Assembly: GCF_964355755.1 (NCBI RefSeq)
Contig: NC_092676.1
Span: 11,578,288-11,642,287 of the forward strand
Length of the DNA stretch: 64,000 nt
DNA from: Antedon mediterranea
Lineage: Eukaryota; Echinodermata; Crinoidea; Comatulida; Antedonidae
Reading direction: 5' to 3'
Part shown: piece by piece, positions 40,569 through 62,400 of the stretch
How the letters are laid out: every line of letters begins with the position of its first letter
Numbering within the stretch: the stretch's first letter is position 1
Position numbers and translations under genes: made by a program
Notes under the pieces: model-generated
The model's database searches: none
Told to the model about the DNA's origin: nothing
What the model saw: only the letters and a program-made list of their open reading frames with translations

Positions 40569-40793
40569 CTGTTAAAGAATAGCACGGCCTATTCCATTTT
40601 ACTGTGAGTAATTGCGGTCAAATTTATAATAAATATTGAAAAACTGCAGGTATATACAAATGATTTCTTGATTGCTGCCCTCTATATATTTTATTCCATG
40701 GATTTTTAACTGTATTCAAAGATACTATTTGCTGTATTTAAACCTACGGTAAAGTTTTTTTTTTTTTCTCTTTCGTGTTTTCTTTCACATTTC

Positions 40794-41066
40794 TACGGTG
40801 GCCTATAAGTGTCACGGCAACTTTAAAAATATATCACGGCAATTTTCAAAAAAAGCCACGGCAATTTGAAAAAAGCCACGGCAATTTGAAAAAAGTCACG
40901 GCAAATTAAAAATAAAACATCACGGCAAATTAGAAATAAAACATCACGGCAATTTAACAAAATACCACGGCAACTTAAAAATGAAACACCACGGCAAATT
41001 AGTATTGAAACGCCACGGCAAATTAGTAATGAAACACCACGGCAAATTACAGAAGCCACGGCGGAA
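40794..41066 (+). repeat. Left subterminal CACGGCAA repeat array (TIR)
   Basis: About 12 repeats of roughly 20-24 bp, each with (C/T)CACGGCAA(A/T)TT followed by an A-rich spacer. The last is GCCACGGCGGAA. The array is the reverse complement of 61,418-61,671 with high identity, and a few units differ in number and spacing. Likely transposase-binding sites (inference). Confidence 0.8.
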
Positions 41067-44000
41067 ATGAGCTCGTATTATCTCCCGCAAGCGATTTTTT
41101 TTCCGTACGAGAGTTCTTCCATCGGTTCGTTTCGGACTCAATCGACTCTCTTCGGTATTCGGTAAAGTCAGCTCACTGATGCGTGACAACATAATACAAT
41201 TTACATTTACAAACCGCGAGCTTACTTTCACACAGGCTCTCACAATAGTAAAATAAATCTACACTAATACGAGTTTTGATTTGATGACATTAATTAATAA
41301 ATACTAGGCCTACTTAGTAATTACATTAAGAACCCAATAGCATATTGAAGATATTTAGGTCTACGACCCAATAGTAGGGTATCAGATATTATTTTTTGAA
41401 GTTGAACGACCTTTTGTCACGAACAAGAGGCTCTTTTCTTATCGTTTATGGTATTGTAGCTAGCCCATGGCTAGCCTAGCTTGTGTAAGCCTATGCAAGG
41501 TATTACTTTTGAATTTAAAATGATTATGTACAGTAGGAATTCCTATGCACAGTGTATGTTTTTTATACCTTTTAAAATAATATTATTAAATTAATATTTA
41601 TATTGTAAGGTAATGGAAATTTGACGTTAAAGGTGTACGTATTAATTATCCCCAATCTTGAAAAAAAGATTTCAGACTTTTAATAATAGGCAACTTTGAA
41701 GTTTTAATTAAGTTATAGGCCTACAACTAATATTATTGTTTATTATGTGTATATGTAATTTGGAAAATCATAAAAAATACATGCAAAGTAAAAAACATTC
41801 AATTACGGTACTGACACGACTGCAATAGTACAAATACATTTAATAATAACACATTTTCCAGGAAGCTTATAATTATATGTGATACTATCATCAATTATTA
41901 AATTAACACAATATTAAACGCTTTATAAGCAAGCATGTATTTCTATACATTACAACTTACAAGAATACATGTTACTAATACTAGGCCTAAATGTATACAA
42001 TTTTTCAAATGTTACACTTAAAAACCTGAAGAAAATTGTAATTTTCTTGATAAAAACATCTGTTAGTGTTACTTCTGTACATATAATTTCTAACCTACTA
42101 CTTCATTTTATTAAAATAAAAAATAGTACTGTAGATGGAATGTACTACATTGAAGCACACGTACGTAGGGCAAGGCTAGCTAGGCTGGCCTTGCTTGTGA
42201 CGACCAACAAAGTGCTGCTACTGTGTGTGTGTTACTGTTTGTGAATCTGATGGTGGTACATACATTGGTTTGTGGCTGCCTATACAGTATTATATTATTA
42301 AAATTCTAGGACTATTATTATTATTACAATGACGTTCAGTACTACTATTAATATTTATTATTATATTTACAGTGAGTATAGTATTAGGCCTCTAGTATAG
42401 TATGTATAAATTTGTCACTCGTGCAAAGAAAGAAGCTGCTCACGTTTTGTGGTTGCTGTCACGCATCAGTGAGCATCGGTGGCTTACCGAAGAGTCGATT
42501 GAGTCCGAAACGAACCGATGGAGGAACTCTCGTACTGAAAAAAAAATCGCCTCCCGCAATGCAAATATAGGGAAGTTAACTGGCAAAGCAAAACTATGGA
42601 GGGCGTCGAAGCAGCGAAGCGTGTTAATTGAAAGTTTTCACACAAAACGTTTTGGACACGCGACGCTGAAAGACGATTCCATACATATAAAAGACGTAAA
42701 ATAAGTTTAAAAAAACTCCTCAATGATATAAAACATTAAACCTTTTTTATTTTTAAACTTATTTTCTTAAAACATATGTATATTTCAAAAATATTTATAT
42801 GATATTTTAAATACTATAACATGTCAAACATTGCTATGCAAAACAGTAAATGAACATTCTCGCTTCAAAAATTTCGGAAGTAAAATGAGTCATCTAAAAT
42901 GTTAAATTACTATTAATTCGAAGTTTTTCAAACTATGCAGAGTGGTATATCATCTTGTTTAACTATTATTGCATCTAATTTTAATTAACACGAGAGAGAA
43001 ACAATTATTTCAAGGGAGTATAATTTGATTGAATTTAGGCTATTTGACACAGCAGAATAGACATGCATGTGTTAAAGCATAAGCGCGTTTAGGCCATTAT
43101 TAGGCGCGCGCGCGCTGGCGGCTAGGCCTTCTTACAATACTATAGATACAGTACTGTACAATATCATCATAATAAATACTGTACTTTATTAATTAAATTG
43201 CCTGGCTGTGCGTCTCAATAAGGAAATTATGCAAGATAGTAATTTATGTATGTTTATTATATAAACATACACTATATTATTTCTATTATTATTTCATTTT
43301 TTATCTGTAATGTTTAATATTAAAGGCAAGACCTAGATGTACCCATAGAAAAATATACCTCAAATATTTGTATGTATTCACATTTTTAAATAATAAATAA
43401 TAAATTGTAAATACTGTACAGTAATAAATGTTTTCAATTTTATAGGTTTATAGTAGGCATTAAAAAGTTTCATTTATTATAAAAATAAATGTAGATTTTG
43501 TTTATTTCAGAATGGACAACCATATACAAAATCTATTTCAGTATGCAGAACATGTGGCTAAAAATCATGTGACTAGATCAAATATACAATTGCCTCCTTT
43601 TATATACTCTTATAATAAATATATTTAATAATTATTAATAGATTAATATTGTTAATACTGTAGATATTAAAATTCATTACTAAAAACAATGACAATATTT
43701 ATCGATAGTAATCTTGATTAGGCCTAACTATTTTTCTCATCACAAATTAAAATCATATTAGAGATACATCGTATTCGTAACAATTACAATATATTTTATA
43801 TTATAACATGATATAATCTTCTGGAGCCGTCAACTACAGTTAAATATCGCGTCTATTCCATTCACCATTTGACAGTGCTTTTTCAACAGCTGGAAAATTA
43901 GTCGACTGTACCATATTTTCTGATCATTCGGAAAAATTGCCTCATGCAAAAAATACACATTTCATCTGACTCCAGACATACCTTTAAAAAAATATAATAA

Positions 44001-45032
44001 AAAATAAAACCAGTGTTATGTGTAATTTATTGGTAATAAAATTGCAATTAATACATATTAATTGTATGCATAATTATAAAATAAAAATACTGTACAATGT
44101 TTAAAATAAAATGTTGCCTGTTACCAAAATGGAATAACCCAAACCTAGCGTTACTTATACAACAAGTGGATTATACTATTATTAAAGACTGGGAGGTCAG
44201 TGTAATGATATTAGGAGCTGAAATAATTTTAACGATATAAAAACAATATTAACATTAATGAACTATAAAGATATACTGTAAAACATTAGTTCTTAAACAA
44301 TTTAAGCTATAACAAACAATACATTATGAAAATGTGTATAATTCGGACCACATTCCACAAAAATACCTAACGATATGCCTCGCACATGGGTGGATATATC
44401 CCCAAACTCCAGTCTCTTTTAAAACTTGTATGTAGGCCTAGGCCTTCAAATCTAGGCCTAGTCGGTATGTTTAAGATATGTGATGAGAATTACCTGGCAT
44501 GGTAGCATTTAAAATACTTGAGTGTGTTTGGTTGATCGCTAACATACTCAATAACAACTGTATTTTAGAGAGAAAATAGTGAAAATTCCTCGTTTTTTGT
44601 TCCATCACAACTCCACACCGTCAATTGTTTCTCTAAAACCTTTAAACCACGTGACTAGTTCAATTAATCATGAATATGTATGAGAATACCTGACCTCACA
44701 AAAAACTTCCGAATTTTTTAAAGAAAAGTTTGAAAATTGTACGATTTTTGGTTTAAAATTTGAGTAAAATTGAGACAAAAAGTAAGATAGATAACAGGTA
44801 TATTCCGCTTTGTTTTTTCTTCGTGTTTTTAGATATTTTGATTAAAAAAGTATAAATGAAAATAAATAAATTGTTTTAAGGTCAAATATTTATGGAAAGG
44901 CTATGAAAAATGCTAGGCCATTTGTTGATCCAAATTCAATCAACCGTTACGCAAAATAAACAAGTGCGCGTGGTTTTTAAACGGCGCGTTAATGCGCATG
45001 CGTCAAGTCGCGAAATTCTCTACGAAACATAC
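41067..45032. other. Segment interrupting the left TIR
   Basis: The right TIR goes straight from the CACGGCAA array to the leader exon, whereas here about 4 kb intervenes, so it is either an insertion or was lost on the right. It holds an inverted ~110-bp pair (about 41,077-41,190 and 42,450-42,570) and a 100-codon plus-strand frame (42,402-42,704, HVLWLLSRISEHRWLTEESI...), unidentified. It also has a 38-codon frame (43,512-43,628, MDNHIQNLFQYAEH) immediately after a TTTATTTCAG acceptor-like site. The remainder is AT-rich with nothing recognised. Confidence 0.4.
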
Positions 45033-45078
45033 GTCACGGCGGAAGTAAAACCCCTGGAATCTTCGATTTTTTTCTGAG
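45033..45078 (+). other. Leader exon (left TIR copy) of the HECT gene
   Basis: ACGGCGGAAGTAAAACCCC through TTTTTCTGAG, then donor GTAAGTAATT at 45,079. The same sequence with the same donor occurs in inverted form at 61,367-61,412. It is followed by a ~900-bp intron to the exon with the ATG at 45,992. The transcription start is not determined; the upstream extent is arbitrary. Confidence 0.55.
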
Positions 45079-45343
45079 GTAAGTAATTATTTGTATATTG
45101 ATGTAAAATAATATTAATTTACAGTACGCACGTGTTTATTGCACTCTTCTTGAACTCTCTATGCGGGGCTAGACCCTACTAGCCTAGGCCTTATTACCAG
45201 GTAGGTCTAGACCCTACATTCTACAATGTTTTAATAATATTTACAGTAATCTGTTTTTTATATTAACAATTAAGTTTTTTTTACAGTAGGCCTAGGGCCT
45301 AGGCTAGCTACTGCTACAATCCTACAGGCATTATTATGCCTAG

Positions 45344-45684
45344 TAAAACTAGTAGGCCTAGCTAGGCATAGCGAATTTACTCGCGCCACTGATCGTCGGC
45401 TAGGTCATATAGGCTAGACTTAACTATTAGCAGCCGCAGCTAGGTGGGTATAGGCCTAGATTTTATTGTAGTTGTATAGGCCTACCTATATTATTATAAA
45501 ACTATCTGTCCTATAAAACTAGTAGTAGGCCTAGCTAGGCATAGCGAATTTACTCACGCCACTGATCGTCGGCTAGGGCATATAGGCGGTGAACCATATA
45601 GGCTAGACCTAGCTATTAGCAGCCGCAGCTAGGCCTAGATTTTATTGTAGTTGTATAGGCCTATTATTATAAAACTATCTATCC
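45344..45684 (+). repeat. Tandem ~170-bp duplication in the HECT gene's first intron
   Basis: 45,344-45,512 and 45,514-45,684 are two direct copies (ACTAGTAGGCCTAGCTAGG ... CCACTGATCGTCGGCTAGG ... TATTAGCAGCCGCAGCTAGG). They differ by small indels, including GGCGGTGAACC in the second. The second copy ends in a near-perfect hairpin at 45,671-45,714 (AAAACTATCTA...TAGATAGTTTT). Confidence 0.7.
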
Positions 45685-45976
45685 TATAATAATTATAGGA
45701 TAGTAGATAGTTTTGGAATTGATACTTGGTATATTTACGATTAGCCTTGAATTATAGTTATTTTATGACAAATATTATATAGTATTATTTTTTTTATAGT
45801 GCAAATTAATGTTATGTATAAATATTAAAGTTGACATTGAGCTTGCATACAGTCGGTAGGCTTATGTGTTTTCTAGGCCAGCACGGAAAGTAACTCTTTC
45901 TCTCTCACTTGTTTCATTTAATTACGATTGTTTGACTATATTTTATACATGATATTTGTGCTTAAATTCCTTTTAG

Positions 45977-46038
45977 AACAAGTAGACCAAAATGGCTGAA
46001 CGTGATGGAGGAGGCCGTGAAAAGGATATAGATATTGT
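45977..46038 (+). CDS. Start exon of the HECT-like gene
   Basis: Acceptor CCTTTTAG at 45,976. ATG at 45,992 in the context AAAATGG. Encodes MAERDGGGREKDIDI plus two bases, then donor GT|GTAAGT at 46,039. The phase fits the zinc-ribbon exon at 46,191. Confidence 0.65.
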
Positions 46039-46190
46039 GTAAGTTTACTTATAGAGTACAGTATAAATAAATTGCCCTTGCAAATCTACCTGTACTGTAA
46101 GTAGTAACAATCGTATGAGGGTTTGTGTGTTTGATGTCCATCACCACACCACACCAACTTTAACAGTACATGCGTTATTCTATTTTCCAG

Positions 46191-46293
46191 ATACTGTAGT
46201 GAGTGTGGAGCAAAGGTTCTAGTGATATCTAAATTCTGTTGGTCATGTAATAGTAGAGAGGCCAAATACACAAAAGTCCTCTATAAAAAGTTT
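46191..46293 (+). CDS. Zinc-ribbon exon of the HECT-like gene, cut by an insertion
   Basis: Acceptor TCTATTTTCCAG. The frame continuing from the start exon reads VYCSECGAKVLV...KFCWSCNS, a CxxC-x(10-11)-CxxC zinc ribbon (DZR-like), then REAKYTKVLYKK. A TIR element begins at 46,294. Confidence 0.7.
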
Positions 46294-47299
46294 GGGGGGA
46301 ATTTTTTGTTAATAGCAGGCAACCATGTTGAATGTATCCTTTGTGGGGTGACAAAAACGATAGGGGTGGATGCCATCTTCAGTTTTAGGTTTTAAGGTCA
46401 GTTTATGTGGTCAAGAGGTCAAACAAGATCAAAATATAGGATTTTTTTTTATTCACGGAAAATCATCTACATCATCAGATCTATCCAAAAAGGTATATTT
46501 GAAGATCAACTGATGCTTCATATTATAGTAATTATGAGATAAACATTTAATTTTACACATAAAAACATAGGAAATTAAATATAAAAGTGTCATTTTCTCA
46601 AAATGTTGTTTTCACATATTTCTGTAAAGTACACACAGTTTTTAATAGGCTTTTCCCAGTCTGTTGTAAATTTGTCTTTTTCATGTTGTCCACCAGTCAT
46701 CGTTTTGATTTTTGTCAGAAAAAATAGGTCAAGTGTTATATGTATGAAACGCCATATGTGCCAAAAGATTGGTCTTTTACTATAATATTAATATTACCTA
46801 TAATAATGTAATACAGTAATATTTAGAAATTCGTTTTTAGAAAAATTATTAATATTATCTATAATAATGGAATAATATTTAGAAATTTGTTTTTAGAAAA
46901 ATTTCGAAAACAGAGACCCACTATATGACCTAATGTCGAGATGTTTTTGTTTGGGTCAGAGACTCCCTATAATGTAATTATTTAAACATTTTTTTCATTA
47001 TTTCAATGATACAAGTTTTTATTGAAGTTTGTTGTTTCAAGAAATCTCGAAAGAGAAGCCTGGGTATTGAGTCTTGTTTTCAAAAACTCTAACTATTGGA
47101 CTTTATCAAGGTTGGAAGGAGTGGTAATTGGGGACTTCTTCTTGAGGCCTTCGCATCTATGCTATCATGGCTGACGGTGATAACAAATATAAAACTCCTT
47201 AAGTAATTAAGAAGTCCTTTATACACATGGATAAAGACGATTTTAACGTTTTTACTGTGTCCAGGTATGAAATCCATTTCTCCCAAAAAGTAAACGCAC

Positions 47300-47660
47300 T
47301 TGAAGAGGACAACGTCATGCGACAAATCAAATTCCAGCTATCCATTCTTATTCATATGAAGATCGTTTAAAGTTTCTTGGCCTAACAACCCTGTATGACA
47401 GACGAATTCATGGTGACTTGATTGAAAATTTTCAAAAGATTTCGAGGGTGTAGCCAAGGAAGACTTCCTTCAAATAAGATGCAATCTAAGCAGAAATACA
47501 CGAGGACATCAGCTTAGACTTATTAAACCTAAATTTCACAAAGGACTGATAGGAGATCCACTTTTTCACAATTAGTAATTATATATTTTAATAGTTTGCC
47601 AACCAAAGTCGTCATTTCTGAAACCACCAACACATTTAAAAACCGATTGGATTCGTTGTA
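47300..47660 (+). pseudogene. Relic of a LINE reverse transcriptase C-terminus
   Basis: Plus-strand frames read IHSYSYEDRLKFLGLTTLYD and RRIHGDLIENFQK, then, after stops and a shift, LPTKVVISETTNTFKNRLDS. These match the usual SYEERLKxLGLTTL / RRxRGDLIExYK / TFKNRLD ending of CR1-like LINE ORF2 proteins. Heavily decayed. Confidence 0.55.
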
Positions 47661-48539
47661 GAAATGAGGTTAAAAGGGTAAACAAATTTACCTATCTAAA
47701 CTATCAGAACCCATATTCTAAACACTGAGTGGATGATTGATCAATTCAAAATAGAATCATTGGTATAACAAGAAACGCTGTAATTCATTGATAGGTTCTG
47801 CATGACATGGTCAGACTGATCACGAATCACACATAATACACAATATTCTTTCGAACTGACAGATGATAAGGAAGATATTTAAAGTAACAACTTATTGAAA
47901 GAAAAAAAACAGTACAGTAGAACTTAGAACTTCATGAGCCACTGAGAAAGCATCGCTCTAAACCTTTGCGGATTTCTATAAGGCAACTGTTTCGATAAAG
48001 TATATAAAAACTGACAGAAAATCTGCTGATCAACCATTGGAGTATGATCATAGCCCAATTTTAATATCTTTAACCAAATATGATTTCACATATCTTGATG
48101 GATGGCGTTGAAATACCCACAGATGTTCCAGAAGAAAACTTACAGTAAAAACATGATGGCCATGCACTATAGGATGCAGTAAACATGGCTGTAAACATTT
48201 TGTGACTATGCAAGTATTTATGCAAGTTACCTAGATATTTCGTCATTTTGTTGTATTTGATCATTACATTGGAAAGGCGTGGATAAAAGCAGTGACACGA
48301 TTGAAAGGATAGTCCCAATGTACTAATCTGTACTTCCGTATGTGTTTTGGGCCACACTCATCGGTTTCGAGGAGAACAAATATCACACAGTTTTTAGACA
48401 TTCTTTATGTCAATAACAAAGAGCTTGAAATTATACATGAAAGTTGATGTTAATAATGATATGCACTTTGTAACAGTAGCCTTCAAAAGTATGGACGATG
48501 TCTGGTATAGTGAAAAATAAAGTGGTTAAAAACCTATTA

Positions 48540-49020
48540 AGAATAATCTAACCAGCTTCCATGCCATTACAGGTTGCAGCACGTCATTATTCGCTGGTTA
48601 TGGGAAGAGGTCATACTGGAAATCATTTGTAACGCATCCACTCCTTGTAAATAGAATTGATTAAGATTAAGACTTTCCACGTACAGTGTACACTAAAGTT
48701 TAATATTGCCAAATATATGGTACTCTTGAGCAGATAACTGTATAATAACAGACTACTCTTTGATGCTACCTAACCTCCATCTATACTCAGTGACCATATA
48801 CCATTAACACTAGTGATATATATTTCCCTTAAATATTAAGTATTTCTCTTCACTCAATAAATATTTAAGTACCTGTATTTCTACTTCGGGAAACACTTTA
48901 AATTAAAAAAACTCACCTATGGTGAATACAGACGTCATATAACCTAAACATACGAGCCAACTATCAGGCAGAGATCAGTATGTTGCCTAAATGAATCGGG
49001 TCGTTTGGAAGCCCCTAACC
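48540..49020 (+). pseudogene. Relic of a FHAxTGCxTTS multi-copy family protein
   Basis: Frame fragments SFHAITGCSTSLFAGYGKRS (about 48,554-48,613) and NIRANYQAEIS (about 48,940-48,975) resemble a multi-copy uncharacterised invertebrate family with HAFTGCDTTSAFxGKGK and LRANYQxxIW motifs. They are separated by several stops. Function unknown to me. Confidence 0.4.
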
Positions 49021-50005
49021 CAGTTGTCAGTTTGGAACTTGTTACATACATGTATGTATGTAAACTAAAGAGCCAGATGAAGTTGTTACAGAAAGCATGC
49101 ATATGTGGTTGTGATTCAATCGTTTGCCGTTACCCAGATGACCAGTAGGCATTATATATCAGTGCTTGAAGAAATACCCACCTCAGAGCGTTACCTCCTT
49201 CCATCCCAGAAAAATTTCGAATATTGGCATGTGCCCATGCCGCCCATTACTCCCCATCCACAAATCCTCTGTGACCGTTTTTAAATGAAATTTAAGACAT
49301 TCCAGTAGTCCTCCAATTTCGGTTATTTTGATACTCTAGGACTCATCCTCTCCATTCCTTGAACACCTTCTAGGAGTGACTCACAAAGTTTAAAATCTTC
49401 CCAGTACAATTCTGGTCTTTTTGACACCACACTATAACCATCAGCCCAAGGCTATCGATATCGAAATTATATTTATTTCAATTATTAATACCGATAATTA
49501 ACAGGTCTGTGCTCTATTTGACCTTATGACCTTGAAAATGACCTTTAAACTTGTAAGTTGAACAATTTATGAACTTCACCATCTGCAGCAATATGTCAAT
49601 AATGATCCAATAATGGTTACATTTCTTTTAATTAGCTTATATTTTGTTGAAAACAGCTTAAACCTCTATTTTACCATATTTGACCTTATAACCTTGAAAA
49701 TGACCTTTGACCTGAAATTTGAGAGCGGCATCCACCCCTATCTTTTTTGTCATCCCATAAGGGATATATTCCACATGGTTGCCTGCTATTAACAGAAAAT
49801 TCCCCCCATGATGAAAAAGCTCACATTAGCCGCCCTACTATAAAGGCAACCAAACAAAATTGCGACCATCTGACTGCTCACCAAAATTCTCAAATGAAGT
49901 TGAATCTCAATCTCCCACCTGCTCCACCAGTATTTCGCCTTCTCAGACAGATACCACCATGTCATTTGATTTTTAAAAGCTAAAACATCAAAAGAGAATG
50001 TCACA

Positions 50006-50554
50006 ATGCCAAGGAAAAAGTCAAGAAAATTAGATGAAGAAGTAACAATTAACATTGGGTTTAAGCTGTTAAAAAACGGAATGCTCAAAGCTTCTAGAGG
50101 GAAACGACTACCGATTAGGTTGCCCAAGGCTGCCACATATCCGATTGTTCTTGAAAGGGCTATTGAAAAATTGGCTGCTTTCGATAGAGAGTTTGACAGC
50201 AAAAGCAGCTATGTTTTACTTTACGAAGATAACAGCTACGCTCGATTTATACCAGGAAATTACAAAGAATTCTTTCAACTAGAAAAATACAAAAACGAAC
50301 TTGGAAGGGATTTCAAGAGAATAATTCTTTATGTATGTCATGAGGATGACTTTAAATCATTTGAAGGAAGAAGTGATGACAGTGAGGAAAATGATAATGA
50401 TGATGTAAATAATGAAAATCTATTTTACCTGAACCAACATGAAGAAGGGTACGTTAGAGAATCATTTGATATAAAGGAAAATGATGAAGGAGATGAAGAC
50501 ATACAGTCAGAAGTGAAGAAAGATAGTTTTGTCAATTTGACACAACAGCCTTAA
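50006..50554 (+). pseudogene. HECT-like gene: ubiquitin-like segment and acidic linker
   Basis: 182 codons (MPRKKSRKLDEEVTINIGF...). About residues 12-115 (GKRLPIRLPKAATYP, YVLLYEDNSYARFIPG, KRIILYVCHEDDF) match the segment that precedes HECT domains in G2E3-like proteins and looks like a ubiquitin-like beta-grasp fold (inference). An acidic Asp/Glu/Asn linker follows. The Met may be internal: the open frame reaches upstream (AKTSKENVT). It ends at TAA 50,552 after a frameshift near a T4 run at 50,527-50,530. Confidence 0.65.
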
Positions 50555-50559
50555 CTGCC

Positions 50560-51270
50560 GTGCAAAATCTTCAAGTTGTGACATCAGCGAAAGATGTATG
50601 CGCGCAGTTAAATACAAGAATTGATTCAAGTAAACAATTTTTTTTGATATGCAGAAGAAATGCTCCACTTAACAGACAACTTTTTCTGTGGCAACGGGAA
50701 TCAAAAAAGTCAGATATCATGTCGCAATTTAGGGTAAAATTTAGCGGCGAAGAAGGAATCGACTCTGGGGCATTGTCGATGGAATTTTTGGAAAATAATT
50801 TAGACGCCATCGCTGCACAGATGTTTCCATATGGAAGCCCTTTGTATTCAACCAACCAAATCCAAAATGGTAATTTCCGCACTTGCGGAGAAATAGTCTC
50901 CGTTTCAATAGCGCAGGGTGGTCCTATCCCATGTTTTCTCAATCGATGTGCATACAGGTGTTTATATGCAGATGTTGATTTGCAGGATATAAAAGATGAA
51001 GACTTAACTGCCTATGAACTAGATACTCTAAGTAAAATCAGAAATGACTGTCATGCCCATGTCGACACAATTTTGGAGCATGGTTATACAGGGATAATTG
51101 GTGAAAAAAATGTAGAGGATATCTTAAAGTCAGTTAAAGTCGCGTTTGTGGGTAAACGTGCTTTGTGCATGAATGAATTCAAGCGCGGTTTTGATAGGTA
51201 TGATTTGCAGCAAATTATATCAGCTTATCCAGATGCTTGTGCAAGCTTAAGAGTTCAAAAAGAACCTTGA
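50560..51270 (+). pseudogene. HECT-like domain, N-lobe part
   Basis: Open frame of about 236 codons (continuous upstream to 50,527). The motif RVKFSGEEGIDSGALSMEFL matches the HECT N-lobe signature (V.F.GE.G.D.GAL..EF). SVSIAQGGPIPCFLNRCAYR follows. It ends at TGA 51,268 because of a 1-nt shift in the A5 run at 51,257-51,261; the neighbouring frame continues NLEPDANYLFSLIEPI to the TAG at 51,494. Confidence 0.7.
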
Positions 51271-51486
51271 GCCAGATGCAAACTATCTTTTTTCTTTAAT
51301 AGAACCCATTCACTCGGAGCAAGGATCGTCGAAGCGCACTCGTGAAGAATCTATTATGGATTACTTTCAAGATTTGTTGATGTCTTTAGAAGACACTGAT
51401 ATGACCGGCTATCATGCTTCTGTGACATGGAATGTGGACAATGAAGAAGGCCGTTGTTCTGAAGACGCAGAATTTGAAAACCCTAC

Positions 51487-51744
51487 CTCAGTGTAGCAGG
51501 TGTTATGGGATGGCTGACTGGTCAGAGACAGAAGAATGTCATGGGAAGAGAAAGACCATCTATAACTGCAAGATTCGACCATGAATGTCTATTGCGAAAC
51601 CCAAAGCATACAGTATGCTTCCCATTGGTTGGTGCTTGTAGCAGAGACTTAACATTACCAGTTGCACACATGCACAGAGAAGAGGAATTTCGTAAGCTTT
51701 TTATACTCGGTTATTGCAAGGGTCAATCTTTTGCAAAGTCTTAA
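51487..51744 (+). pseudogene. HECT-like domain, catalytic C-lobe part
   Basis: The frame contains AGVMGWLTGQ, ITARFDHECLLRNP, TVCFPLVGACSRDLTLP and EEFRKLFILGYCKGQSFAKS. Cys45 of the segment that starts at ATG 51,505 (GAC-SRDLTLP) aligns with the HECT catalytic Cys that precedes the conserved LxLP, so the thioester-forming residue is retained. It ends at TAA 51,742-51,744. Confidence 0.7.
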
Positions 51745-52719
51745 TTAAACAACAAGCAGCCAATTATACATTCTTTATAGATTGCCACTGACCAACATAT
51801 GTTCATGTTTTTCAAGCATTAGCACTGTATTACAGAGTTATTATTGTGTTCTAGTTCTGTTTATAATAAACAGTGTTTATTCTATTATGACTTAAAAGTT
51901 TTTTTTTGAAATGGTTTTACGTTTGATGACTTGCTAATGTTTTATTTAATTTTCCAATCATTTTATTATAATTAGGCAATGGAAATCCTGTTTAGTATAA
52001 TAATTAGTACCAGCACGCATAATTAACAAAAAAGAGGTAAATTTCAAAATTAAAATCAGTGCTTCTTTTAAATAATAAAAGATGAATAGTGTTTTAATAT
52101 GTTAAAGTTTCTGCGTAAAAAAAAAATATGCATATATTTACAGTGTTTTTTCCACTGTATTTCTAAGTTATTAGAAAATGTTTCCTCTTGGCCTGTAACG
52201 AATACAGTAGTACACATTTGAATAAACCACATGTTGCAATGCATTATAGTCATATTACTTACTTGATAAATAGACCACATTTTTACATTGTTTTACATAT
52301 AATTAAAATGAACACCATATATATTTTCTCATAGTCTTGAATCAACTGTCTACAGACGATACTTTAAAACAGTAATGATTGACGTCACAATTATAACATT
52401 ATTCAAATGCATTACTGAAATAATAAATGAATAGGCAGAGTTTACTCAACAACTAATGTATAGTTATTCATGTTTATTTCATGAATATGTTTACAAAAAT
52501 TAAACTTTAAATAGGCCATTTTTATCCAAATCCATTCTATAAGTGAAACATATAATATGAGTACATTATAAAACACTCCATTCAAGCTGATAAGCTGTTA
52601 TAAGCAAAACATAACAATACAATAATTTGCTAACTCAATACTTGAATTATTTTCGGTTTTATTCAACATTTTCAGTTTTATTGTAAATTAAAACTACTAG
52701 AACTAGTGCAGGTATATTC
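51745..52719. other. AT-rich intergenic gap between convergent genes
   Basis: 3' ends of the HECT-like (plus) and transposase (minus) genes face each other. AATAAA-like words occur (for example ATAATAAACAG at about 51,862). Nothing coding is recognised. Confidence 0.5.
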
Positions 52720-52958
52720 TCAATTGACACCATTAACAGCATACCATACAATTAAATTATAAAGCCTAAGTGCTTCTTGCCAATTACTAGGTTGTTGGAA
52801 CTGACATGTTTCCATGATGTAGATAAAATAGTCATTGTGAATATTATTTTCTTCTGTTTCAATCAAATGTTCCTTCGCAAATATCTTGTTGTGTTCTGTA
52901 ATAGAAAGTAGCAAGTTTGAAGTACCCCCATGAAGTTCCGGTAAAAAATACTAAAGAA
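52720..52958 (-). pseudogene. C-terminal piece of the integrase-like transposase
   Basis: Open frame after the LINE junction, containing HGGTSNLLLSITEHNKIFAK and FIYIMETCQFQQPSNWQEAL. Joined in frame to the LPEL sequence on the far side of the LINE through the duplicated target site. Stop at 52,720. Confidence 0.6.
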
Positions 52959-53372
52959 CAATCTTTCATTTCCAAACTTATTTATATAATATGTTGGTAA
53001 TAGCTTCCATCTCACATGCTTTCTACATATTAATTTTCTCGCCCACGCAACCTTGAGCGCTTTGACCTGTAATGCAAAATCCGGCATATTAATACCTCCA
53101 TCTTTTAGCTTGCCAATTAATGTCTTTCTTTTAATTTTTTCCCCTTTTCCATTCCATAGGAAATCGTATGTCAGTTTATTCACCTGTAAAACAACATAAT
53201 TTGGTACATCAATTATAGAGGCGTTATGAATTAGTTTAGATAAACCGAGACTCTTTAAAATTGTAACTTTTCCAAAATATGTAAGGTTTCTACCTTTCCA
53301 CGTGTTGAGTAGTCTTTCTAAACTTAACAATTTATTAGCCCAGTTTAGTTCTTGACATTCATCCTTTTTATA
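52959..53372 (-). pseudogene. LINE ORF2, C-terminal segment (truncated)
   Basis: Frame with LLSLERLLNTWKGRNLTYF, FLWNGKGEKIKRKTLIG, GGINMPDF and AWARKLICRKHVRW: thumb and post-RT region of L1/Tx1 ORF2. It runs into the target duplication near 52,959; the rest of the C-terminus is missing. Confidence 0.65.
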
Positions 53373-53374
53373 AC

Positions 53375-55204
53375 CTACATTATTCCTAAAATTTTAATTG
53401 GTTTTTTAACCCAATTTAAGTTACATGGTTTTTCAATTTTATTTATATTTCTACCAATCCACATGGCATTTGTTTTTCTTTTGTTAAGGCTCATACCTGA
53501 TACTTTACAAAAGTTGGTAACAATATTTAAACCTATCTCAATACTATCCTCATTCCCAGTAAAGATAACTGTGTCGTCCGCTAATTGGGCGATGCGTATT
53601 TCTTCATTTTGCACCGGGTCGGGGACAGCTATGCCTACAAAATTCACATCATTTCTTATATTACAGGCCATGATTTCTACAGTTAAAATAAACAATAACG
53701 CTGACAAAGGACAACCCTGTCTTATACCACTATTCATTTGAAAACTTTCAGAAATCCATCCATTATTTACAATTACACATTCGGTATTATTATAAATTGT
53801 TGATACCCATTTACGAAAAGAATCTCCAAAATTAAACTTCTTTAATACTTTGAACATGAATTCCCTATTCACAGAATCAAAAGCTTTACTAAAGTCAAGT
53901 GATAACATTGCACCATCAATATCTTCATCTTTGGTATAGAATAGAATGTCATTAATTAATCTTATATTTTCACCCGCAAAACGCCCTTTAATATATCCTT
54001 TTTGATCATTGTCAATTATATTTGCAATAATCTTTTTTAATCTTGTACATAATATATGAGTTAACATCTTATAATCAGTGTTTAATAGAGTTATAGGCCG
54101 CCAGTTTTCTAAAATTTGTTTGTCACCTTTTTTATAAAGTAAATTGATCACTCCGCGTTTCTGCGTGTGACTCATTTCATTTTTGTTATAACATTCGTTT
54201 ATGGCATTACAAGCAATATGTTTGATATCATTCCAAAATAATTTATAGAATTCCACTGGCAATCCATCACATCCCGGAGCCTTGTTTAGCTTCATTTTTT
54301 TAATAGCTTGTTCGCATTCAGCTATTGTTATTGGGCCTTCACATACCTTGTACTCATCTTCTGATAAAATATATACATTTGAATTATTTAAGTATTTGTT
54401 TATGTCCGCTGAGGGAATATCCTTATTACTATATAATTGTTTAAAGAAATTTACTTCTTCACTAAGGATTTTCTGAGGTTTTGTTAATATTGTCCCATTT
54501 TCTTTTTTTATACTTTTTATATGTTTTTTTGTACCGTTATTTTTCTCTAGCCCAAGAAAATACTTAGTACTCCGTTCACCTTCTTCCATCCATTGTAGTC
54601 GTGAACGTATATAATATGCACCCTTCGCCTCCTTTTCATAAATTTTTTCTAGAACTTTTGTTTTTTCTTCAATTTCAGTCAGAATACATTCATTTTCACG
54701 TGTGCAAGTCTGGTCAATTGCTTCATTTAGAATTGTTAATTGCTTCTGAAGCTTTTCCTTTTTTTTAATTTTTTCTTTATTTATTTTTTTACTGTAAAAA
54801 ATCGAAAAGTCTTTAACCTTCACTTTTATAATTTCCCAAATTAAATCAGGGCTAAGGATCCTTTCGTTGTATTTGGTATTATGTATAATATCCCTAATAT
54901 GGTCTTGATAATCCATATTTTTCAACAAATCATTATTAAGCTTCCAATAGCTAGGACCCCTTTTAGATTGATGTAACCCAATTTTAATTGATATTGCTTG
55001 ATGATCTGTTAGTATTGCTGGCCTAATATCACATGATATTATTTCATTGTATTCAACAATATTTTTAGAGGTAAACCAATAATCTAGTCTTCTATAAATT
55101 TGGTTATGTTTTTTACGCCAAGTAAATTGTATTTTGTTTGGATTTGTAATTCTCCATGCATCTTTTAACATCAATTTGTTCATAAAATGCTTAACCGTAA
55201 ACAC
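53375..55204 (-). pseudogene. LINE ORF2, end of endonuclease and reverse transcriptase
   Basis: 609 codons. LTDHQAISIKI is the endonuclease SDH-equivalent motif. RT motifs: NKAPGCDGLPVEFYK, NWRPITLLNTDYK, LSLDFSKAFDSVNREF, GIRQGCPLSALLF and LADDTVIF. Strongly L1/Tx1-like. It ends at a frameshift near 53,372. Confidence 0.8.
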
Positions 55205-55710
55205 AGATGTGTCTTTTCTATCAGCACTATTTTTTGGTCACAACGTCTATCAAGTACGCAATTAATATCACCCCCCAAAATAATTCTATCACTGTCAAGA
55301 TCAATAAAATTTGAAATGATATTATTTAAATCTCTAAAGAATGTGCTTCTCATTTTGCTATTATTTGGGGCATATACATTAATGAACACAAACATCTTAT
55401 TATTAATTTCTGTTTTAATAATTATATATCTCCCATTTTTACCTACACTTTGCTTTATCACTTTATAATTGAAACCTTTTCTGAATAAAATCGACACGCC
55501 TGCACTAGTCGAGTTATTAATACTATGTACACAATCACCTTTCCAAATCGATTTGAATTTTTTAAATAAATCTTGTGTAAGATGTGTTTCCTGTAACAGT
55601 ACCACATCCGTTTTTTGATCTTTACACCATTTTTCAATTTGTAATTGCTTGGTATTATCACGCAAACCTCGTATATTTAACGAGATACAATGAAAATTTG
55701 AATTAAACAT
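55180..55710 (-). pseudogene. LINE ORF2, N-terminal endonuclease
   Basis: 176 codons from ATG 55,710: ISLNIRGLRDNTK, VVLLQETHLT, GVSILFRKG, FINVYAPNN and IILGGDINCVLD are AP-endonuclease motifs. It shifts frame into 53,375-55,204 near 55,215. Confidence 0.78.
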
Positions 55711-55818
55711 TGATCGGTTTATTTAAAGAACCATTGGTAATTATACATACACACATTAATACCAGTATTAAAGGAAAATAGCGAAAGTAGCATGCACAAC
55801 TATTATAGTATAACACTC

Positions 55819-56164
55819 TCACTTTTCTATAGTTACTTGTTTTTTACTTTTACTGGATTTTCTTCTTCTCTTTGAGCCTGGCAAGGTAGGAGAGATGTTT
55901 TCCTCGTCATCCTTTTGTTCGTTGGTGTTAATCACTTTTCCCTTTACCTTCTTCTCGCTGGTTGAGGCTTGTTTAAGGAAGTCCGTGATCTTGCCTTGCT
56001 TCTCTTGAAGTTCATGCCTTTCACTTTCTTCCTTGTCTTCCTCTTCACTGCCTGTACTTTCCTCCGAGCTTGAAACTTCTTCATTAATAATTTCTTTGTT
56101 TTCATGTGTGTTAGCATCTTTCGTATTGTTCTTAACGATGACACGTTCCCACATATCTTGAATT
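55819..56164 (-). pseudogene. LINE ORF1-like C-terminal fragment
   Basis: Open frame reading QDMWERVIVKNN, then an acidic Ser/Glu stretch (SSSEESTGSEEEDKEESE), then a Lys/Arg-rich tail (GSKRRRKSSKSKK) ending at 55,819, 109 bp upstream of the ORF2 ATG. It begins at the target duplication, so the LINE is 5' truncated inside ORF1. The identity as ORF1 is inferred from position. Confidence 0.5.
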
Positions 56165-56600
56165 AGTTCCGGTAAAAAATACAAAGAATCAGGTCGCCCC
56201 TGTACAGTGTCATGTCGTGATTTGCGAATATAGTGAGTGTTCCAATGCTCTTTAACTTCATCAATGCTCTCTTGTAGTAAATCACTAAAACAAAACCACA
56301 GGCACTCCTTATGCAGTAAATTAGTAAGGTCAACAACATTATTTTCACAAAGTTCTTTTTAATTAATCCACCAATGTGTGTGACTTCGTCTAAAAAAAGA
56401 CCACCATCCTTCTATCCTTTGATTCCTTGGCGAAGGAACATAACGGTGACTACCTTGATCATCTCTAAAAAAGGCTTGCATTGCAGCCATTAAACCATTT
56501 TCTGTTCCACGATCAGTAACCAAGTCAATTGGACATCCTGCAGCTTTCTCCACTGCTTCTAAATAACATTTTGCAATATTTGTGGGTAAATTATTTGAGC
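56165..56600 (-). pseudogene. Integrase-like transposase, catalytic core part 2
   Basis: Contains KAAGCPIDLVTDRGTENG (second Asp), HRYVPSPRNQRIEGWWSFF (catalytic Glu) and, after a TAA near 56,359 in the same frame, continuing sequence LLHKECLWFCFSDLLQESI to LYFLPEL at the LINE target site. Confidence 0.7.
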
Positions 56601-56603
56601 GGG

Positions 56604-57134
56604 TTACATATAACCAAATAATTTTCCTGCTCCAACCGTCAATACAACCATGAATAGGAAAGCCGAAAGGTTTAGTTTGTCATACCCATCACAATGCCAC
56701 GAATGATTCGGTCCGGGATTATGATAAACTCGTCTTTTTAGTCGATGGCGTGCCCTTTCTTGAACACCATCTGGGTCCAGCTCTCGTAGTACTTGTTCGA
56801 CAACCAATCTTGGTACCCGTATACCATTTAATTGCAGTGTGTGCCAAATTGAACGGTAACCTCTCTGACTATCAGGTCCATTCAGTAATGTTTGGATGGA
56901 CTCTGTTATAAAATCAATATCATAATCTGGATTTTTACGTTTAAGTCCTAGACGCTTTATCCTCTTTTTCAACGTACTTAAACTTAATTCTATGCCATGA
57001 TACTTGGACAAAAACAAAAACAAACAGATTTCATCATATATAAAACCTTTGAAAAAATAATATTTGATTAATCCGTCTTCATCAATTTCATCTTCTCCTG
57101 TCTCATCCAGATCACTGTTTACCCTGCCAGTCAT
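56604..57134 (-). pseudogene. Integrase-like transposase, N-terminal part
   Basis: 176 codons from ATG 57,134 (acceptor-like GTACACAG 18 bp upstream). A helix-turn-helix-like region (about residues 45-75, LSLSTLKKRIKRLGLKRKN) and GYRSIWHTLQLNGIRVPR precede YHNPGPNHSWHCDGYDKL, with the first catalytic Asp. After KL the frame is shifted by one base near 56,670; the neighbouring frame reads PIHGCIDGWSRKIIWLYVTR. Confidence 0.72.
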
Positions 57135-57659
57135 ATTGCATTACTGTGTACGGCCTATACAGCCTATAAATATGGTCACTTTTTCTTGGCACCTTCACAA
57201 CCAAGACTCTCACATATTCATAATAGTTCCTGAAAATAGAAAATATATTGTGTACTGTATGTATCAAACAATTAATTTACACTTACCTGCTGACAATGCA
57301 ACTGCCTGGACCTGGTTAGTGCTACTTTGCACCGGGTACCCTTTGCACCACATCTCACAAGCTTAACCCAATTTAAAAACAATTATCTGCTGAGCGATTG
57401 TGATGTTGAGTGACCGTCTTATGCCCAGTTAGGTGTCAAAGTATAGTAGTGCCGGCTAGGCCTCTTTATTATTAGCCAAACCATCCATGTTGTTATGCCT
57501 ACTAGGCCTAGGCCTATATATATAGTATACATTCGCTATAATTCATACCTAGACATAGGGCCGTTATTAAGCCTAAACTAGACCTAAGCCTGCTGACAAC
57601 AACCTAAAACCTGCTAAAGCTTTATTATTATTTTTATTATTTATTTATAGAAATGTAGC
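57135..57659. other. Presumed intron DNA upstream of the transposase
   Basis: AT-rich with TAGGCCTA words. No coding recognised. It lies between the transposase start and the 8-bp-TSD element. Confidence 0.45.
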
Positions 57660-57667
57660 CTAGCTAT

Positions 57668-60600
57668 GGGGTGTCACGAAACCTAAGACCACGAAAGCTA
57701 AGACCCCTAAGACCTAAGATCACGAAAGCTAAGATCCAAGGCCTAAGATTACAAATATTTATCTTTCTCACCTGCCTTGTATTTTAACTCCCAACATTTA
57801 TTTTGAATACCACACCTTAGAATTGGCACTTTTATGAAAAAGAATCACATAAAAAGTAACAAATACATTTTTAAATTGATCATTTTACAGACGTTTTTCT
57901 CGCACACAAACTGTTTGCGAATTTCGCATGACTAGCCTACAGTACAGTAGCAGTAGGCCTACCATGTTCAATGTTTTTGTTTCTATGGAACGTCAAAAGA
58001 GCAAAAATTATATAGAGGGCTGAAAACTCTGTGGAGTGCATCTACAGTGTGGATGGAACAATGTAAAATTAAAATTATAATGATAATAGTATAATCATGC
58101 AAGTACGAAGAAATAAATACTGGCAAATAAATTTTAATTTAAAAATCATGATTTGTTTCGTTTTCTTTCTGTTTTTATACTTGTACTATTATAGTTGCTC
58201 TTTTGGCGCTCCATAGAAACAAAAACATTGAGCATGCATGATCATTTTTAGGTTTACATGAAATGAATGGAAGTATATCAGCGGTGAATGTGAAGCAAAA
58301 CCTACAGGTCACAACAGAAATTAATAATATCTTCATTGCGTTTTGTCATAAGAATAAGATTGTTTACCACTACAAACCATTTTCTAAAATAATGCAGTAA
58401 TAATGAAGTAATAAAACAGTAACAAGGAGCAAGTGTGTAAAATGAAATTACAAATTTTCTAAATAGAAAATTTGTGTTCATTCATATCAAAAATTGTGAA
58501 TGTGGAAAATGAATGTTGATTGTTTAGACAGGCTAAATTATTAATTGCAACATTGAAGTTATTAATTACACTATAATTACATATATAGGCCTAAAATGCC
58601 AACCAAGGCTTTACCATAAATTTGTATTTAATGATATAGAATATAGAATTTTTAACTTTAAAGTGAGTTACCTGAATATTATTATTATTAAAATATTAAA
58701 AATGTTGTTCTTGTGCAACAACAAACAAGGTGAGGTGTGTGTAGGCCTAGTTAGAACTTAGAAGAATAGGCCTCTAAAGCCCTTTTCTCACAGAGCTGAG
58801 TGCCAGGAATATTGCGGGAATATACCATTACCATGCCGGTATGGTTTTCTGTGAGAACGGGTCGTCTTGGCATCATGCCGGCACCATGCCGGCATCAACA
58901 TGACCTGCTTTAGACCTAGTAATATTCTAGGGATATTCCCCGCAATGCCAGACGGGCATTCTGTGAGAACGTAACGCCGTTATATTCCGGGGTTCCTTGT
59001 CGAGGCTTCAGACACCTTGCGCGGTCAAGTGTATCACTTTGGCGCCGATTCAATTCAATTAACAATAATAATGTCGAACTGGAGGGATAATGAGATAAGA
59101 GAGCTGCTTAAAATAAGGGGACAAGAAGAAATTTGTAGCATAATCTATAGCAGGCCTACTAGCCTAGGCCATATAGCTCTTTGTTGGTGCCTAACTAGCC
59201 TGACCCTTCGTCGCCTTGTAAATTGTACAGCCTTCTAAGGTGTTTTACAGATTGCCGATTGACGGCTAATTAATTGCTGTACCTGTATAATATATGCACA
59301 ATATACTGTACATAGCATGTATTGCATAAATATGCTATAAAGGAAGATAATAATCTGTAACCTAACATTCGCCGCCATATATCCCTAGACAAAAATAATA
59401 ACAATATAGGACGCCCTCAATAATTATTTTGTCAGAGACTTTTTATTGGCCGAGTATGCCCGACTCCTTTCTCACAGAAAGCCGGTATATACCGGTTATA
59501 TTTCAGGCACGATAGTCCGATGAGAATGGGTATATGCCGGTAACGATACCGGCACGACTCCAGCACCGTACCGGTATATTGCAGACACATCTGTGAGAAA
59601 GGGGCTTAAGTCTACTCTCTAGGCTAGTACATCTTTTTGGAGGTATCAAAAATTGTTTATTCTGTAACTCCATGGGCTAGACTAGGCCTAATTATTTTGT
59701 GTGATGACCTTTATTATTATTAGTAAGAGTAGGCGAGCTGCAGAGGCTCCTGTGTGTGTTGGGGGCCTAATAGGCTAGCTAGCTAAGCCTACTACTATAG
59801 TATAGGGCCTATATATCATATGGTCCATGGAGGTTTTATTTCCAGGGCATAACGTATTTACCTGATCTAATGTAATAAATAGCGAAATATTGGCTACATG
59901 CCTTGATCAGTATAAATATTGAGTTTTTTTCTTTCTTATTTCACTGACTGTTTCTGCTATCTGATAGCCTCGGTTCCACGGTGTAGGTGGTTACCGAATA
60001 GCTTCGTGTTCTTGCGCGCGATACAACACATGTCATGATGGTACCGCGGAAAAAGTAAACAACCTGGCCTAGGAACCCGCTAGGCGGCGCGATGCAATAT
60101 GAACGTACTTTAGTTTGAATAGTCGGATTTGCGTCCCAACTACTCGATTTTTAATCCCAATATTTCAAAATGTAGTTTATAAATTTGTTCAACAGGGATT
60201 TTAAATTCGAGGTGGTTCATTTTTGATAAATATTTTAATTAAGTGGTTTTTTAAGGCACTAATTCAATAAAAAAATTAAACACGAATTGTCCCTTAAATT
60301 TCAGATTTTTGTATGGATGAAAATTCTTTAAAAAATTGTTACCATATAATTTAATCCTTTGAAAATATATTCCATTTTCAAGTTTTTTTATTTTTAATAG
60401 TAATTTTACATGATATCCTTTCTCCTGAACCCTACAAATTTCTGTATTTTGAACAAATTTGAAAAAATACGGCGCCCTCTCTTAGACGAAAATTTGTTCG
60501 ATTTGTCGAGTGGCTTTCCCACTGCATGGGGGGAGCTCGAGGAGTTACAGTATACAAAGAAACATGTCTGTAAAATCATCAATTTAAAGGATTTATTTAT

Positions 60601-61041
60601 TTGTTTTTATGTGTTTCTCCGTCTGAAAGTACTTATAAATCCTAATTTTAAAGTGTGGTATTCAGGATAAAGTTAGTCAACAAATTTGGAGTCAAAATAC
60701 AAGAAAGGCAGGTGCGTAAGAAAAACATCCTCTGAACCAACACAATGGAGTAAATATATACCAACAAACAACCCGTCAAGTTTGTTTGTTGTAAAGAAAA
60801 AATATACATTTACTCAACGGGCGAAAATAATGTGAGTTTATCTATGTTTTGCGGTAGTATTTAATTATTTATGGTAATAAATGAAACCTACTGTGTTTAA
60901 AATTATGTATGGATAAACAAGTATTGTTTTTAAGCTGTAGTATATCTTAGAATTTGTAATCTTAGGTCTTGGGTCTTAGCTTTCGTGATCTTAGGTCTTA
61001 GGGGGTCTTAGCTTTCGTGGTCTTAGGTTTCGTGACACCCC
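57668..61041. mobile_element. 3.4-kb TIR element with 8-bp target duplication
   Basis: TIRs of about 89 bp: 57,668 begins GGGGTGTCACGAAACC and 61,041 ends with its reverse complement. They contain internal repeats of CACGAAAGCTAAGA. Flanks CTAGCTAT (57,660-57,667) and CTAGCGAT (61,042-61,049) match at 7 of 8 bases. An 8-bp duplication is known for hAT, P and Novosib; the termini do not decide. No transposase is visible. A short open stretch (60,478-60,600, PTAWGELEELQYTKKHVCKI) is unassigned. Contains a nested MITE at 58,778-59,606. Confidence 0.7.
58778..59606. mobile_element. Harbinger-like MITE with TAA target duplication
   Basis: 829 bp with TIR AGCCCTTTTCTCACAG / AGCCCCTTTCTCACAG, flanked by TAA (58,775-58,777 and 59,607-59,609). 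TTCTCACAG/CTGTGAGAA and CCGGTAT words recur internally. A TWA duplication is typical of PIF/Harbinger. A plus-strand frame with ATG 59,071 begins MSNWRDNEIRELLKIRGQEE, resembling the start of Myb/SANT-like proteins encoded by Harbinger elements, and soon degenerates into TAGGCCTA DNA. Confidence 0.6.
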
Positions 61042-61129
61042 CTAGCGATTCCCTACTACTAGGCCTAGCCTAGTTTTACTAAGTCTAAGGCCTAGCTAGG
61101 CCTGTAAAAGCTAGCCTAGCTACTAGGCC

Positions 61130-61671
61130 TAGATAGAGTATACAGTAGGCTAGGCCTACTGTAAAAAAAACTTGTTAATGTTAATATAAAAAAAAGATTA
61201 CTGTAAAAATATTAAAACATTGTAGAATGTAGTGCCTAGGCCTACCTTGTAAACCCGGCCTAGGCAGTTCAAGAAGAGTGCAATAAACACGTACGTCGTA
61301 ACTGCTGCAGTTAAATACACTAATATATTAATTATTATTTACATCAATGCACAAATAATTACTTACCTCAGAAAAAATCGAAGATTCCAGGGGTTTTACT
61401 TCCGCCGTTGTAACTCACTTCCGCCGTGGCTTTCTGTAATTTGCCGTGGTGTTTCAATACTAATTTGCTGTGGCGTTTCATTTTTAAGTTGCCGTGGTAT
61501 TTTTGTTAAATTGCCGTGGTGTTTTATTTCTAAATTGCCGTGATGTCTTATTTTTAATTTGCCGTGGCTTTTTTCAAATTGCCGTGGCTTTTTTCAAATT
61601 GCCGTGGCTTTTTTTGAAACAATTGCCGTGATATTTTATGAAAGTTGCCGTGACACTTATAGGCCACCGTA
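61130..61671. repeat. Right TIR of the 20.9-kb element
   Basis: Reverse complement of the left TIR: a CACGGCAA array (61,418-61,671, about 11 repeats), a leader exon on the minus strand (61,412 to 61,367), its donor GTAAGTAATT, and ~230 bp of intron similar to 45,079-45,310. Unlike the left side it is uninterrupted. Confidence 0.78.
61367..61412 (-). other. Leader exon (right TIR copy) facing the transposase gene
   Basis: Inverted copy of the left leader: reads ACGGCGGAAGTAAAACCCC ... TTTTTTCTGAG on the minus strand, followed by GTAAGTAATT. It points toward the minus-strand transposase at 57,134. Its use as that gene's first exon is inferred. Confidence 0.5.
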
Positions 61672-61677
61672 CATTTC

Positions 61678-62040
61678 TACTTTGATAAATTACGGTGTAC
61701 TTTTGTAGTATGATTTAAAGATGTATTGTCCCTTGAAACACAAAAAATGAAGGTCAAAATATTCTAAATCTAAATTGGCCATATCAAAGTAATGTCGAAA
61801 ATTCGAGCCAAAAACGACAAGTTTACGTAATTAACAGGTAAATTAATTTGATTACATTTCGTCTGAAAAATCGTCGCGAGCGAAAGTAAACAAAGATTTC
61901 AAACCACGAGTATGCATTATGCATGATGCTAATTGGGATTGTTTACAACTCGTCACAGTTGAGAAGGTGTTTTTTCACACAGATCGCAAGGAAGTTTTAT
62001 GATTATGCATACAGTCGAGAAGCCAAACAAGGAGACGGGT
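61678..62040. other. DNA right of the giant element
   Basis: AT-rich, presumably pre-insertion sequence continuing from 40,787. No gene recognised. Confidence 0.4.
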
Positions 62041-62400
62041 TGGTGAATTTTGTCCAAGATGGGGAAATTTCTGTCCAGAATGGGGAAATATTTTGTCCAG
62101 AATAAGGACAAAAGCGATAGGTGGCGCTATAATCGTGTCCAAGATGGGGAAATTTCTGTCCAAGATGGGGAAGTGGTGGCGCTATATCGTGTCCAAAATG
62201 GGGAAATTTCTGTCCAGGATGGGGAAGTGGTGGCGCTATATCGTGTCCAAAATGGGGAAATTTCTGTCCAGGATGGGGAAGTGGTGGCGCTATATCGTGT
62301 CCAAAATGGGGAAATTTCTGTCCAGGATGGGGAAGTGGTGGCGCTATATCGTGTCCAAAATGGGGAAATTTCTGTCCAGGATGGGCTTATGCTGTGTCAA
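62041..62400 (+). repeat. 54-bp minisatellite (18-codon period)
   Basis: Near-identical tandem units containing GTGTCCAAAATGGGGAAATT, TCTGTCCAGGATGGGGAAG and GTGGTGGCGCTATATC. The period of 54 bp is a multiple of three, so two plus-strand frames stay open (VQNGEISVQDGEVVALYR in one). Each unit is itself two TGTCC(A)(A/G)(A/G)ATGGGGAA half-repeats of about 21 bp. No gene context. Confidence 0.8.

Follow-up and report, generated by a model that had tools for sequence, protein, structure and literature searches.

A cut-and-paste transposon family of probable IS3EU type in the crinoid Antedon mediterranea carries a gene for a HECT-type ubiquitin ligase

Introduction

Why would a cut-and-paste DNA transposon carry a gene for a ubiquitin ligase? 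This question is raised by a locus in the genome of the crinoid Antedon mediterranea (assembly GCF_964355755.1; 354 Mb in 18 contigs), which lies in a stretch of 64,000 nucleotides, C7:11578288-11642287 (contig NC_092676.1; hereafter the window). At positions 40794-61671 of the window, an earlier note made from the sequence alone had described a 20.9-kb transposon that inserted as one block and contains two convergent genes, one for a G2E3-like HECT protein with a zinc ribbon and the other for an integrase-like DDE transposase. Here we consider it likely that this element belongs to a cut-and-paste family of the IS3EU type, about 6.7 kb long when uninterrupted, in which a DDE transposase gene converges on the gene of a resident HECT E3 ligase that serves the element.

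Results

The left end of the window element begins at 40794 with TACGGTGGCC and its right end closes at 61671 with the complementary sequence GGCCACCGTA, and a perfect 6-bp target-site duplication (TSD), CATTTC, flanks the element at 40788-40793 and 61672-61677. The terminal arms, with the left terminal inverted repeat (TIR) at 40794-41025 on the forward strand and the right one at 61437-61671 on the reverse strand, are 94% identical across 235 columns and contain subterminal CACGGCA repeats spaced 20-24 bp apart. Within the window, TACGGTGG or its complement occurs twice, at the two element ends. We scanned positions 36001-64000 for TA..TA ends with a TIR identity of at least 15/20 and an identical 6-bp flank, and found a single pair, namely the ends of the element, with 20/20 identity. 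The inverted ends and direct repeat that the earlier note described are therefore exact.

The note had also proposed looking for empty sites. A genome search with the two flanks joined by one CATTTC revealed that the element sits in a dispersed repeat, and all five of the paralogous empty sites fetched read across the joint with a single CATTTC, with 44-45 of 50 matching columns in the right flank and 51 of 61 in the left flank.

A second complete copy of the element is found at C2:4389848-4396512. This copy measures 6,665 bp, has the same ends as the window copy and its own TSD (AATATC), and contains both convergent genes between these ends, with the HECT gene as an open frame of 685 codons and the transposase gene carrying one stop. 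Four stretches of the window copy, about 14 kb of its 20.9 kb in all, have no counterpart in the C2 copy. The window copy is thus an element of about 6.7 kb swollen by four nested insertions. Because the C2 copy lacks these stretches, insertion as a unit applies to the core of about 6.7 kb alone and not to the full 20.9 kb. A further HECT gene, at C1:32769271-32771325, is likewise an open frame of 685 codons that differs from that of C2 in three codons. The C1 copy is 99.4% identical to C2 over 4,895 columns and is cut within the transposase; its other end was not found within 10 kb. The closeness of this copy (L034, C1:32765301-32773300) to the C2 copy may reflect recent activity or duplication.

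Searching the genome with the TIR gave at least 49 matches at no fewer than 29 places, which are lower bounds since 40 of the 107 candidates were scored. Of the 26 places besides the window, C2 and C1 copies, we fetched 20: both ends are present in 18 of them, all 18 with identical 6-bp flanks, and a single TIR end was found in the fetched stretches of the other two (L039 and L056). Sixteen of the two-ended copies measure 0.35-1.2 kb, one 2.1 kb and one 6.4 kb. The earlier note had taken copies of the TIRs that bracket one gene or unrelated DNA as evidence against its proposal; the fetched copies indeed have no HECT match, and are ordinary non-autonomous derivatives. The 6.4-kb element (L044, C2:34351460-34357980), with the same TIRs and the TSD AACCTG, also has no HECT match and is probably a small derivative carrying a nested insertion.

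A genome search with the HECT protein returned 11 matches: the C2 and C1 copies, the window pieces, a short remnant on C3 (two matches) and two weak matches. No TIR end was found beside the C3 remnant. One of the weak matches, C3:15578215, was rejected for want of a convincing element common to it and to an rva_4 transposase match 9 kb away, and the other is at C10:10962211 (26%). Copies of this HECT gene outside such TIRs, a second observation that would have told against the note, are therefore limited to one short remnant and two weak, distant matches. In another check that the note had proposed, both genes between the same TIRs with a 6-bp TSD recur in the C2 copy, with the reservations that its transposase has a stop and that the C1 copy is truncated.

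The protein of the C2 copy has a zinc ribbon, a ubiquitin-like beta-grasp domain and a HECT E3 fold, both lobes of which are covered in its structural model. This bilobed fold is shared with HECT E3 ligases such as HUWE1, UBR5, Smurf and NEDD4, to which the protein is 10-17% identical in the structural alignments listed, whereas the N-terminal zinc ribbon and ubiquitin-like domain, and the location within a transposon, set it apart from the known ligases. A profile alignment places C651 opposite the Cys that is invariant among six HECT sequences; C644 (HTVCFP), initially picked as the catalytic Cys, was dropped in favour of C651 on this alignment. The Cys motif is kept in 76 of the 80 homologs that show this region, at 32-49% identity. 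Among the other four, P0025 and P0094 keep the Cys in a changed motif, P0087 retains it ahead of a divergent end, and P0070 has no Cys at this place.

With 16.7 bits, the window fragment misses the Pfam gathering score for HECT (23.9), a score that the other 106 HECT matches of the genome exceed. In G2E3, PHD-type fingers precede the HECT domain. No PHD match at E<=0.01 was obtained for the window-family HECT protein (P0001) or five relatives with Pfam, a search of weak sensitivity here. The earlier note was right about the HECT-type E3 and its zinc ribbon, whereas no likeness to G2E3 could be confirmed outside the HECT domain. We read the protein as a probably catalytic E3 ligase that is resident in the transposon and would serve it.

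The window transposase fragment matches Pfam rva_4 (PF24764) with 46.3 bits at a cut-off of 26, and the protein P0114 likewise exceeds this cut-off. Residues D148, D207 and E241 are invariant in all 25 aligned homologs, which were drawn from the best 120 of 993 relatives. An integrase-like DDE transposase gene convergent to the HECT gene is thus borne out. In a comparison with solved structures, the only matches were two weak ones, at E values of 0.011 and 0.017, with a TET-like dioxygenase, and we took them as chance. The termini of the window family read TACGG..CCGTA; those of a second family described below read TACGA..TCGTA, which are TA..TA yet not TAYGG..CCRTA. A 6-bp TSD is found for the window copy, the C2 copy, all 18 further two-ended copies and the second family (CATTTT).

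Across the whole genome, once matches on one strand and no more than 2 kb apart had been joined, the 77 rva_4 matches fell into 62 clusters and the 106 Pfam HECT matches into 52. Twenty of these 52 have an rva_4 cluster no more than 6 kb away, and 19 of these pairs are convergent; counted from the other side, 25 of the 62 rva_4 clusters are equally close to a HECT cluster. In 2,000 random placements the number of pairs averaged 0.1 and never exceeded 2 (contigs without matches were omitted, and C4 and C9, which are actually longer, were sized by their largest match coordinate). The window family stands outside the 20 pairs because its HECT gene scores below the Pfam cut-off. HECT genes beside rva_4 transposases are therefore common, not universal. 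The ligase that the earlier note had called unusual for a cut-and-paste element is present and not peculiar to the window copy, and its recurrence at 20 other places suggests a lasting part of such elements. Given this pairing, the idea that a HECT gene was captured from the host in a single event was dropped as the main reading.

Four paired loci were fetched, and they carry four different transposase frames. One pair could be delimited as a second family at C1:5572635-5585349: 12,715 bp long, with the TIR TACGAAAGCCTATTAG (16/16) and the TSD CATTTT, it has transposase and HECT genes inside, and a further copy on C8 is 97.5% alike across 5,390 columns. The inverted end arms of the C1 element (L065 and L069), about 1.3 kb long, include part of the transposase, so that close to the other end there is another piece of transposase in inverted orientation. 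The fetched stretches of L066, L067 and L068 yielded no TIRs; a TIR candidate in L067 (2,756 bp, 14/16) was rejected as it ends short of the HECT match. Two HECT/rva_4 pairs within 10 kb at C6:31605812-31615575 are possible tandem copies. The best rva_4 match of the genome, C5:18782495-18783052, lies in an open frame of 481 amino acids with no HECT match nearby, and might be a host gene, present in a single copy, that descends from an rva_4-type transposase.

Beyond this genome, the HECT search yielded at least 112 relatives among 7,993 candidates scored, including the octocorals Dendronephthya and Xenia, the coral Oculina and the ascidian Clavelina, and the transposase search yielded the 993 relatives mentioned above. 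Six contig sizes are common to the two lists (112 HECT entries, and 118 of the best 120 of the 993 transposase entries): three distinctive contigs of 589117, 938784 and 4032369 bases, an Oculina chromosome of 48979667 bases, and two short contigs of 2124 and 5266 bases. Of the two short ones, about one is expected by chance: when one size list was shifted by 1-20 bases, each shift produced a mean of roughly one agreement, always between short contigs. These common contigs support the pairing weakly, because a shared contig does not establish adjacency. On the contig of 589117 bases, the frame ahead of the transposase (P0147) suggests, from its codons, CACGGCA and ACGGCGGAAGT repeats of the kind seen in the window element. 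Among viral contigs, 38 stretches fit a pattern and none encodes a relative.

In the window copy, the first nested insertion (41071-45034, about 4.0 kb) is unclassified and missing from the compact copy. The HECT gene follows on the forward strand: its zinc-ribbon coding part (46192-46250, a weak Pfam match) is directly preceded by a plausible 3′ splice site (tattttccag) and is cut off from the rest by the second insertion (46251-49840, about 3.6 kb, with the TIR TAGTAG.. and TAA at both borders). A further exon is predicted 5′ of the zinc-ribbon part. The remaining gene (49841-51744) is frame-broken, with pieces to 49976 and at 49970-50554, 50527-51270, 51251-51496 and 51478-51744; when it is compared with C2, four gaps are out of frame. 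On the reverse strand, the C-terminal end of the transposase gene (52720-52951) is severed by the third insertion, a long interspersed nuclear element (LINE) on the reverse strand at 52952-56164, with Exo_endo_phos and RVT_1 frames and an 18-bp duplication, AGTTCCGGTAAAAAATAC, at 52934 and 56165. The rest of the transposase gene, at 56165-57140, contains one frameshift and one stop. The fourth insertion (57668-61041, about 3.4 kb) has the TIR GGGGTGTCACGAAACC and an 8-bp near-duplication, CTAGCTAT/CTAGCGAT, whose length suggests a hAT-like element. Directly left of the transposon lies a retroelement pol fragment (37509-39491; Pfam RNase H, integrase zinc-binding and rve), and to its right, at 62003-62999, are repeats (SKMGKFLSRMGKWWRYIV and similar) that look coding in several frames.

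Discussion

The TA..TA ends, 6-bp TSD and DDE transposase of the window family fit the IS3EU superfamily, which is described by TA..TA termini, a TSD of 6 bp and an integrase-like DDE transposase (PMC10045372, PMC12730594). The second gene sets the window family apart: here it is a HECT gene, and the main text of these two papers does not contain the terms HECT or ubiquitin. The nearest likeness is with fungal TET+ IS3EU transposons, which also carry extra enzyme genes, in that case for a TET/JBP dioxygenase and an alpha-kinase, the latter opposite in orientation to the transposase, and for whose TET dioxygenases a role in countering silencing or methylation has been proposed in the text of PMC12730594.

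We propose that the HECT frame is translated into protein, that the transposase would bind the ends with their CACGGCA repeats and cut and paste the element, and that the ligase, steered by its N-terminal domains, would ubiquitinate a protein that limits the element. As its substrate, a host repressor or repair factor is our first choice, held at slightly less than even confidence; our second and less probable choice is the transposase or the complex in which it is bound. Two points lead us to favour a host factor: HECT genes adjoin several transposase types, and the additional TET genes of fungal IS3EU elements have been given a proposed role against silencing (PMC12730594).

The main rival to a host-factor substrate is self-regulation, in which the ligase would ubiquitinate the transposase or the transposase-DNA complex and thereby limit copy number or free the complex after strand transfer. 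The convergent layout next to the transposase speaks for it, and in other elements transposition complexes are disassembled by proteases. Self-limitation is, however, usually under weak selection, and we regard this role as possible and rather unlikely.

Several observations weigh against a ligase that serves the element. Three of those given below, namely the HECT-less rva_4 clusters, the protein distances and the substitution rates, speak for a passively captured host gene, cargo without benefit to its carrier. No Pfam HECT match lies within 6 kb of 37 of the 62 rva_4 clusters, three of which are the window family itself. These HECT-less loci include long open frames at C5:18782495 (481 amino acids) and C11:20732443 (430 amino acids), where the search with P0001 also found no HECT gene. 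In one transposase type (L002-L007, L009, L010, L016 and L017), a HECT match is no more than 6 kb away from two of the ten copies. Both genes are placed inside one delimited element in one of the 20 pairs, and P0001 has no Pfam match at all at E<=0.01. The assembly contains no window-family copy with both genes whole, the transposase being damaged in all three HECT-bearing copies. Furthermore, HECT and transposase protein distances are uncorrelated over five paired contigs (r=-0.02, a value reached by 50 of 120 permutations); seven pairs gave r=0.11 (1,700 of 5,040 permutations). Co-descent of the two genes thus left no signal in either set, and gene exchange between families is therefore possible. 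Finally, the HECT genes of C7 and C2 have a ratio of non-synonymous to synonymous rates (dN/dS) of about 0.86 (6 synonymous and 20 non-synonymous changes), a figure drawn from few changes, to which the decay of the broken copy contributes.

We nevertheless consider passive cargo improbable. It does not readily account for 20 HECT/rva_4 pairs with 19 convergent, for four different transposase frames in four loci, or for a second delimited family; moreover, the HECT frames of C1 and C2 are open despite broken transposases, and the Cys motif persists among distant homologs. A HECT ligase serving its element is the reading that we retain.

More improbable still is the view that we are dealing with a transposase of GingerRoot, or of some other integrase-like superfamily, and not of IS3EU proper. 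IS3EU and GingerRoot are united in one lineage in PMC10045372, which lends this view some ground. Against it, the window family matches the description of IS3EU in its TA..TA ends, its 6-bp TSD and also its outermost bases, fungal members having TAYGG..CCRTA ends (PMC10045372, PMC12730594). Lastly, that the 20.9-kb block is a collage of nested elements with an unrelated HECT gene caught between TIRs is refuted by the C2 copy, where both genes stand between these ends, flanked by a separate TSD, and the insertions are missing, even though four nested insertions are truly present in the window.

No description of a HECT gene paired with an IS3EU-type transposase was found in the literature searched; subscription papers and Repbase reports were outside its scope, and a prior description is possible. 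Tentatively, and by analogy with the proposed role of the fungal TETs, an IS3EU-type lineage of many invertebrates may have kept a HECT E3 as its second gene since ancient times and use it to destroy or disarm a silencing host factor, in which case many HECT genes annotated as ordinary would be transposon genes.

If the ligase serves the element, such transposons would come equipped with a ubiquitin enzyme, a tactic more familiar in viruses and bacterial effectors, and would offer a direct handle on how they meet host control. HECT gene counts would then be inflated in genomes where these transposons abound, as may be the case here, where 20 of the 52 HECT clusters adjoin an rva_4 transposase.

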